Shown in pieces: positions 22,115 to 38,653 of a stretch of DNA of 64,000 bases. The DNA comes from Archilochus colubris (lineage: Eukaryota; Chordata; Aves; Apodiformes; Trochilidae): assembly GCA_023079485.1 (NCBI GenBank), contig CM041090.1, positions 6,198,519 through 6,262,518 on the forward strand, written 5' to 3'. The translations under genes and the position numbers were made by a program. Each line of letters begins with the position of its first letter. The stretch's first letter is position 1. The notes beneath the pieces are model-generated. The model was not told where the DNA came from and did not search any database. It was given only the letters and a program-made list of their open reading frames with translations.

Positions 22115-22796
22115 CTGGGGGTTTTGGGGGTTTTTTGGTTTGGTTTGGTTTTGTAGTTGTGTTTTGGTTTCTTGGGGGGGTTGTTTTGTTTGGGGTTTTT
22201 TATGGGTTTTTTAATGTGTTGTTTTGGGTTTTTTAAATTTCTTTTTTGGTGGTTTTTGTTTGGTTTTTGTTTGGTGATTTTTTTGGTTTTGGGGGGTTTT
22301 TTGTTTGGCTTTTTTTCTGGGGTTTTATTTTGGAGGTTTTTGGGTTTTGGTTTTTGGGTTTTTGTTTGGTTTTTGGTTTTTTTGTTTAGTTTTTTCTTTG
22401 TTTTGTGCGGGGATTTGTTTGGCTTTTTTCTGGGGGTCTTTTTTGTGGTTTTTGGATTTTGTTTTTTGTTTGTTGGTGATTTTTTTTTTTGTTTGTGGGG
22501 TTTTTGGTTTGGTTTTTTTCTTGGGTTTTTTTGTGGTTTTGGGATTTTGTTTTTTGTTTGGTTTTTGGCGATTTTTGGTTTGTGGGGTTTTTTGTTTGGT
22601 TTTTTTCTTGGGTTTTTTTGTGGGTTTTGGGTTTTAGTTTTTTGTTTGGTTTTTGCTTGGTTTTTGTTGCTTCTTGTGGGGTTTTTGCTTTTTTTGTTTG
22701 GTTTTTGTCGGTTTTTGCTTGAGGATTTTTTGTGGCTTTTTTTTTGGGGGGGGGGCGGGTGTGTGTTTTTTTGTTTGTTTGTTTGTTTAGTCTTTT
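22115..22796 (+). repeat. G/T-rich degenerate minisatellite with extreme strand asymmetry
   Basis: Almost every base in this 0.68 kb is G or T on the + strand. A phrase of the form GGTTTTTTTCTTGGGTTTTTTT recurs near 22306, 22420, 22511 and 22598, with spacing falling from about 114 to 87 bp, so it is a degenerate tandem repeat. Many GGG runs make G-quadruplexes possible on this strand. It is bounded by a (TCC)n-like run at 22101-22118 and a G-run with a GTTT array at 22745-22790. Long open frames on both strands here (for example a Lys/Pro/Asn-rich minus-strand frame at 22033-23010) arise from the absence of stop codons in this composition and are not genes. Confidence 0.9.
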
Positions 22797-38133: not shown

Positions 38134-38139
38134 AGAGAG
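38134..38139. repeat. Left copy of a 6-bp target-site duplication, AGAGAG
   Basis: AGAGAG directly precedes the TG terminus at 38140 and is repeated at 38648-38653 directly after the CA terminus. The motif is simple, so chance identity is possible, but it falls exactly at both breakpoints of the palindrome. Confidence 0.65.
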
Positions 38140-38647
38140 TGTAGTGGAACAAAGCAATCAGACGCCTCTGATTACCGAGAAGTGGGTGTGAGCCTGTATC
38201 AAATCCACCTGTGCCCAATTAGGGCAGCCCCCCTATTGAGCATGTGCAAGACCAGGGGGCCAATAAAAGGGTGAAACTCACAGCCACAGACTAGCTCACT
38301 CTCAAGCACTGTATTACCTTTATTGTGCCACTAGCGCTCACCACCTCCAAGGTGAGGCTCTCGTGGCACAGCTGGTTAAGACCCAGTACTGCAATGCCGA
38401 AAGCACTGGGTTCGAGACTCCACAGAGAGCCTCACCTTGGAGGCGATGAGCGCTAGTGGCACAATAAAGGTAATACAGTGCTTGAGAGTGAGCTAGTCTG
38501 TGGCTGTGAGTTTCACCCTTTTATTGGCCCCCTGGTCTTGCACATGCTCAATAGGGGGGCTGCCCTAATTGGGCACAGGTGGATTTGATACAGGCTCACA
38601 CCCACTTCTCGGTAATCAGAGGCGTCTGATTGCTTTGTTCCACTACA
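38140..38647. mobile_element. 508 bp palindromic (foldback) element with tRNA-like centre and LTR-like ends
   Basis: The left arm 38140-38362 and right arm 38425-38647 are reverse complements over 223 bp with only two mismatches (within 38341-38343 against 38444-38446, both transitions) and no net indel. The symmetry centre is 38393.5. The outer ends are TGTAGTGGAAC and GTTCCACTACA, giving TG...CA termini. The 6-bp direct repeat AGAGAG lies immediately outside at 38134-38139 and 38648-38653, and beyond it the flanks are unrelated. Each arm, read inwards, has a GC-rich stretch, then AATAAAAGG (38262-38270), then a possible R/U5-like stretch. The 62-base loop plus the innermost arm bases form a tRNA-like sequence. 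TG...CA ends and a 6-bp duplication are retroviral-integrase hallmarks, but head-to-head arms around a tRNA are not normal provirus structure. Alternatives are a long-TIR DNA transposon or a novel SINE-like foldback. No ORF is present, so it would be non-autonomous. Confidence 0.9.
38357..38430 (+). ncRNA. tRNA-like sequence with internal Pol III A and B boxes, centre of the palindrome
   Basis: The segment is 74 nt long, the length of a tRNA. The 5' GCTCTC and 3' GAGAGC pair as the acceptor stem, and pairing continues into the palindrome arms. TGGCACAGCTGG at 38364-38375 matches an A box. GGTTCGAGACTCC at 38409-38421 matches a B box and T-loop. The two are 45 bases apart, as in tRNA genes. 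CCCAGT and ACTGGG (38382-38387, 38405-38410) can pair around the middle region. The D arm and T stem are not clean cloverleaf arms, so I call it tRNA-derived rather than a functional tRNA and cannot assign an isotype. The first TTTT downstream is at 38519-38522, so a Pol III transcript would run about 165 nt into the right arm. Confidence 0.6.
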
Positions 38648-38653
38648 AGAGAG
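38648..38653. repeat. Right copy of the 6-bp target-site duplication, AGAGAG
   Basis: This is the partner of the copy at 38134-38139. It abuts the CA end of the 508 bp element, and the six-base length is typical of several endogenous retrovirus groups. Confidence 0.65.

Follow-up and report, generated by a model that had tools for sequence, protein, structure and literature searches.

A palindrome of 508 bp in the genome of Archilochus colubris is, with a probability that we put at about 80% from sequence comparison, a non-autonomous retroelement dependent on class II (ERVK-like) endogenous retroviruses. We describe its DNA form as U3-R-inner arm-tRNA-like-inner arm'-R'-U3', that is, with two U3 ends and no direct LTRs. 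Its copies make up a dispersed family that entered the genome in the manner of integrase substrates, and the two outer arms of a copy go back to a single source. In subfamily B, the young sister of the subfamily A found here, these outer arms are retroviral U3-R; that subfamily A works like B would follow by analogy.

The palindrome and its copies

The window, by which we mean the whole 64-kb stretch of DNA that was analysed, carries two 223-bp arms (38140-38362 and 38425-38647). With one arm reverse-complemented they agree at 221 positions and need no indel, the mismatches being 38341/38446 and 38343/38444. The flanks lack complementarity and the same six bases stand on both sides. The palindrome reported in the preliminary description is real; its centre lies at 38393.5 (Table 1). 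Three reading frames of at least 40 codons overlap the element: those of 75 and 51 codons extend beyond it, and the other has 43 codons. Unlike a class II endogenous retrovirus the element has no long reading frame. RNA of the inner part folds with a z of -19.9 against shuffles, as expected of any such palindrome. About 1 kb downstream (39139), a similar stretch matches over 23 bases at 83% and was taken as chance. Elsewhere in the window, low-complexity sequence rich in G and T extends over 22129-22790 and contains a degenerate tandem unit of 88 bp.

Table 1. Features of the window copy (positions in the window).
Feature	Position	Strand	Basis or remark
Left target-site duplication AGAGAG	38134..38139	.	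Seen directly
Left outer arm, U3-R equivalent (arm positions 1-169)	38140..38308	+	Homologous to subfamily B arm 1-139 (U3-R of the helper LTR); putative border, carried over from the subfamily B alignment
AATAAA, left arm	38262..38267	+	Shared by A and B; appears as TTTT on the opposite strand
Left inner arm, element-specific (arm positions 170-217)	38309..38356	+	Absent from subfamily B helper LTRs
tRNA-like centre on the symmetry point	38357..38430	+	Box motifs and alignment; no ARAGORN or Rfam call
A-box-like TGGCACAGCTGG	38364..38375	+	Match to the box consensus
B-box-like GGTTCGAGACT	38409..38419	+	Match to the box consensus
Right inner arm, mirror of left inner arm	38431..38478	-	Arm comparison
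AATAAA, right inner arm	38463..38468	+	Possible poly(A) signal of an RNA starting in the left arm; putative function
Right outer arm, U3-R equivalent, mirror of left outer arm	38479..38647	-	Arm comparison
Right target-site duplication AGAGAG	38648..38653	.	Seen directly

That a tRNA-like segment occupies the symmetry point had also been proposed, and this held. The A-box-like and B-box-like motifs (matches to the pol III box consensus) start 45 bases apart, which is tRNA spacing, and no other pair at that score occurs on either strand within the window. When 22 human tRNA sequences were aligned to the centre and scored against shuffles, Thr-AGU, Ile-UAU and Arg-UCU reached z values of 6.5-7.5 and the other 19 gave 2.0-5.9; given that three tRNAs score best at similar z, no single parent is clear. 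ARAGORN and Rfam called no tRNA on the element, and "tRNA-like" is therefore a fair term where "tRNA" is not. The exact centre pattern had 0 matches in viral contigs and 0 in genome contigs.

Searching 182 contigs (1.0998 Gb) with the 508-bp query returned 1,739 first-look candidates, which are not necessarily all copies, and 40 of these were scored. All 40, the window copy and 39 others, match at about full length and 93-100% identity, each in reverse as well, and nearly all of the 39 retrieved copies share with the window copy the ends TGTAGTG...CACTACA (subfamily A). The earlier view of a rather recent mobile element with TG...CA ends and a 6-bp duplication is borne out by these copies, and the layout is the same in every one of the 39. 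Two further queries, 201 bases of one arm and the centre (84 bases), added 40 loci, in many of which one arm is shortened or missing. Around a similar centre, the loci carry outer arms of three or more kinds: A, B and, in L097 and L099, C. A query for subfamily B retrieved 14 copies of full length, 12 of them at 98-100%, and 6 partial ones, the whole set spanning 93-100%; with 40 of 1,428 candidates scored, this amounts to at least 20 B copies. Loci L104, L129 and L130 were not included in the analysis.

Contig C32 (32.4 Mb, about 3% of the genome) holds 7 of the 20 young B copies and 2 of the 40 A copies. In birds, the W chromosome is a store of young retroviral insertions, and we suppose that C32 could be this chromosome. 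On contig C1, four centre-query matches lie within about 0.5 Mb (17.19-17.72 Mb), two of them (L101 and L103) with a longer inner arm.

Eighteen of the loci L064-L103 are half-elements, found in both orientations, in which one arm and the tRNA-like segment are followed by no second arm; the remaining 22 of the 40 additional loci have two arms or parts of both. In 17 of the 18 the sequence stops where the tRNA-like segment ends on its far side, or just beyond. Ten of the 18 were retrieved with the arm, a query without preference for an intact centre, and 9 of these stop there too; the centre, a query that does select for intact centres, retrieved the remaining 8. L078, one of the 17 that stop there, has a 6-bp duplication at the junction; the other half-elements, 17 in all, have none and may be later losses. 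Seven further copies (L071, L073, L074, L079, L085, L090 and L096) have lost an inner stretch of one arm and kept their ends and duplications, with short shared stretches at the junctions when read by eye. Half-elements and one-arm internal deletions alike may be aborted products or later losses at the palindrome.

Integration and the probable helper retrovirus of subfamily B

Among the 56 copies with both ends (40 A and 16 B), TG...CA ends occur together with 5- or 6-bp duplications in 53, five of these with one mismatch. The duplication is an exact 6 bp in 43 copies (32 A, 11 B), 6 bp with one mismatch in five (4 A, 1 B) and an exact 5 bp in five (3 A, 2 B), and three copies have none (1 A, 2 B). 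According to PMC9410886, cleavage by integrases is adjacent to CA and results in 4-6 bp, RSV/ASLV produces a mixture of 5- and 6-bp duplications, and MMTV has the weak integration motif ATN/GTTAACNAT. In the 48 sites whose duplication shows no more than one mismatch (both strands pooled, n=96, flank background 0.294, p values uncorrected for 13 positions), T is enriched over the flanks at -2 (48/96, p 2.6e-5) and A at -3 (42/96, p 3e-3); AT at -3/-2 corresponds to the "ATN/" part of the MMTV motif as given there. The G/C preference of MMTV at the first duplicated base is absent from these 48 sites (C 32/96, G 21/96), and nothing in the MMTV motif answers to A at -7 (41/96). The 5-6-bp duplications and the AT target preference argue for a retroviral integrase, which is the likely enzyme joining the element to its target. 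A LINE-type 3' tail and long variable duplications, both features of tRNA-derived SINEs, are absent from the copies.

The source of the subfamily B outer arm could be traced. Positions 1-122 of the B arm (123 bases with one flanking base) were used as a query, and 40 of 723 candidates were scored. The sequence also occurs outside palindromes, at fourteen retrieved places that include two same-strand pairs. There the similarity spans arm positions 1-139 (134-136 of 139 identical) and stops at 139/140 in all 14, which would be expected if U3-R had been captured at the 3' end of a retroviral RNA. By their neighbours these LTRs are six 5' LTRs, followed by the primer-site side, three 3' LTRs and five solo LTRs, and a polypurine tract (an A-run, a G-run and AAA) immediately precedes each of the three 3' LTRs. 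By eye, the primer-binding-site side of the helper does not resemble the loop of the element.

One pair, at C1:73.80-73.81 Mb, consists of LTRs of 255 bp each, 5.8 kb apart, with 0 mismatches between them and a 6-bp duplication, GGTTTT. Within two separate 1-kb pieces between these LTRs, four of the nine listed open stretches were scanned: three contain Gag_p24_C, dUTPase, and RNase_H with Integrase_Zn, respectively, and the fourth had no domain match. Class II, betaretrovirus-like elements usually carry a dUTPase next to Gag. Judged by sequence, what fills arm positions 1-139 of subfamily B is U3-R from a class II (ERVK-like) endogenous retrovirus. At C1:9887073-9889724, two same-strand helper LTRs lie only 2.5 kb apart, a shorter and possibly deleted relative of the 5.8-kb unit.

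Origin of the arms and competing explanations

Derived variants present in both arms of the same copy fill 90 cells, against 18.9 expected and a maximum of 35 in 500 permutations that redistributed right arms among copies and left out the ambiguous-gap positions 126-133. With these positions likewise left out, arms differ by 1.9% within a copy and by 3.6% between copies. Several of the mirrored variants are private transversions, for example at positions 8, 9, 10, 35 and 54. In young B copies, most of which are 98-100% alike, the majority of variable sites already show mirroring. Such recurrence in both arms of one copy means that the outer arm comes from a single source.

The inner arm behaves differently. 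Across 201 non-CpG positions in 40 A copies, unmirrored variants rise from 0.24 to 1.09 per site, summed over the copies, after position 162, a break matched in strength by 0 of 1,000 shuffles, whereas mirrored variants show none (729 of 1,000 as strong). In L095 the outer arms are about identical and a 30-bp insertion sits in the left inner arm only; the same insertion is present in L096, L097 and L100. Five A copies carry a haplotype at 163-167 in one arm, on the right in L021, L027 and L031 and on the left in L023 and L034, a distribution that fits no single simple origin. Arm position 181 is A in one arm and G in the other in 15 of 16 B copies, and in three B copies the arms also differ at 107 or 112. 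Mirrored outer arms beside inherited inner differences indicate that each round makes the outer part anew from one source, and the inherited asymmetry that the inner halves of a copy can have two different sources.

How a helper could supply this outer part is suggested by L121 (C32:26.2 Mb). Both of its arms are identical over 1-139 to four of the 14 LTRs (L135, L136, L142 and L146, the first two belonging to one provirus-like unit), and they differ at four or more positions from every one of the 11 B copies set beside them. The inner arm of L121 has 2 differences in 54 positions from the window copy and 2 in 54 from the B copy L083, its centre matches L083 at 61 of 62 positions and the window copy at 58 of 62, and its own two arms differ once in 193 positions. 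We read L121 as an existing element onto both ends of which the U3-R of a helper was placed together.

A wider comparison paired 13 LTRs (L137 being omitted for an indel) with the 11 B copies, other than L121, that have no gap in 1-139. Over positions 1-99, distances are 0.22 between LTRs and elements, 0.28 among LTRs and 0.17 among elements, and 224 of the 286 LTR-element pairs, which are not independent, are identical; over positions 100-139 the values are 3.93, 1.69 and 0.82, and 0 of 286 pairs are identical. Positions 1-99 thus form one pool and positions 100-139 two. The LTRs were retrieved by an element query over 1-122 and are therefore biased towards an element-like U3, a bias that does not explain why differences cluster after position 99 within the query itself. 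When only majority letters are counted, the contrast is weak (3 of 40 sites in 100-139 against 0 of 99 in 1-99, Fisher p 0.02).

A cycle that would produce these patterns can be outlined. The RNA of the element would run from R through the tRNA-like loop to R', without U3, and could end at the AATAAA of the right inner arm. Reverse transcription would be primed by the hairpin itself or by the tRNA-like loop; the R' end of the cDNA would then jump to the 3' R of a helper RNA and copy U3, the end of which would be set by the helper's polypurine tract, where the plus strand starts. The plus strand would pass through the loop, its R' end would snap back so that U3 is copied to the other end, and the helper integrase would join the two U3 ends to the target. 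An A-type helper LTR would be expected to carry arm 1-169 either directly after a polypurine tract or ahead of a U5 unlike CTGTATTACC. In its full form, with an RNA lacking its own U3 that obtains a fresh one in each round from an active retrovirus by strand transfer at R, U3 mirrored to both ends by snap-back, two-U3 integration, lineages A, B and C recording a succession of helpers, and the loop as built-in primer or promoter, we hold this scheme at somewhat short of even odds. Several observations sit badly with it: mirroring in A breaks near 153-162, past the position of about 128 at which B would place the U3/R point; the MMTV-like G/C preference is missing; the sides of the 163-167 haplotype are mixed; and AATAAA is too near to where the RNA would start to serve as a TATA box. 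We also considered a pol III transcript with its end at the right-arm TTTT; it agrees with the boxes, but was rejected because it conflicts with the inherited inner differences.

Alternatively, U3-R may have been captured only at the birth of each subfamily, the element's own RNA carrying one full outer arm ever since, which is copied to the other end while the helper supplies nothing but enzymes. The near-uniformity of the B copies, most of which share letters at 100, 123 and 134 unlike those of most LTRs, and the private mirrored variants in A speak for such a history. We nevertheless find it doubtful, given that elements and LTRs form one pool over 1-99 and not over 100-139, and that the U3 terminus would have to be set without a polypurine tract; a C/T variant at position 24, found in two of the 14 LTRs (one unit) and in two elements, points the same way, although repeated mutation could explain it. 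The preliminary description had offered, as one model, a one-arm RNA with a tRNA-like 3' end that uses its acceptor stem for self-priming, so that the whole arm is copied. The idea that one arm was copied from its partner, or both from one shared source, survives in the mirrored private variants, and the half-elements ending at the far side of the tRNA-like segment would suit it. What is made afresh, however, is mainly the outer, U3-like part, and the inner halves can differ by inheritance, as in L095, at 163-167 and at arm 181, while the 17 half-elements without a junction duplication may be later losses; the cis-primed "one arm plus tRNA" RNA is not supported, the helper source of U3-R in B was unforeseen, and we regard this model as improbable.

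Mirrored private variants would also arise if gene conversion within the palindrome had equalised the arms after insertion. Conversion does not account for L121, whose outer arms equal retroviral LTRs at both ends, for the large inner difference of L095 beside nearly identical outer arms, or for young B copies already mirrored at most variable sites, and it is very improbable. Inverted terminal repeats and mostly 6-bp duplications could recall a foldback (MITE-like) DNA transposon; since the B ends are U3 termini that in proviruses lie next to the polypurine tract, and the target preference is of a retroviral kind, we give this origin hardly any chance. Perfect palindromes are a known type of assembly or foldback-read artefact, yet unlike flanks, target duplications and occurrence at 60 places in two subfamilies (40 A and 20 B) make such an origin virtually inconceivable, and the same layout at 39 other scored places refutes assembly artefact and chance alike.

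Relation to known elements and implications

In its U3-R (seen in subfamily B), TG...CA ends, 6-bp duplication and target preference, the element resembles class II (ERVK/betaretrovirus-like) endogenous retroviruses, from which it differs by having two U3 ends, no direct LTR pair and no U5 at the outer ends. Similar to TRIM and other non-autonomous LTR retrotransposons, it is short, gene-free and probably reliant on a partner's enzymes. TRIMs, however, keep direct LTRs with PBS and PPT; here direct terminal repeats are absent, the repeats being inverted and meeting in a tRNA-like loop, and no polypurine tract lies within the element, which ends at the U3 terminus, the tract sitting in the B helper. 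The A and B boxes recall tRNA-derived SINEs, from which it is set apart by its integrase-type ends and by the lack of a LINE-type tail and long variable duplications. For the proposed priming step the nearest precedent is the self-priming LTR element Tf1, in which self-folding of the RNA primes reverse transcription; Tf1 differs in using its 5' end for minus-strand priming and in having direct LTRs. DIRS-like elements likewise have inverted terminal repeats in a retroelement, but use a tyrosine recombinase and leave no target duplication, where the present family leaves mostly 6 bp.

Non-autonomous elements served by retroviruses are a known kind; for the palindromic two-U3 form, or an LTR-tRNA-LTR family, the titles and opening lines of abstracts among the literature matches listed hold no description. 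The main texts of PMC4992247, PMC2329609 and PMC5006616 nowhere use the word "palindrome" or its derivatives. In the portions of two of these papers that we could consult, the chicken family Hitchcock is of "undefined" class (PMC4992247) or an LTR element (PMC2329609), and the chicken family Soprano is mentioned in both, sequences being given for neither.

A two-U3 family that has dispersed through a genome would show that integrase and reverse transcription permit a palindromic life cycle. The normal entry of retroviral DNA is by a U3 end and a U5 end. The family would further be a natural record of first-strand transfer between a parasite RNA and the genome of its helper, and would document which retroviruses were active when. 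Its copies are also natural hairpin-forming insertions, the stability of which can be followed.
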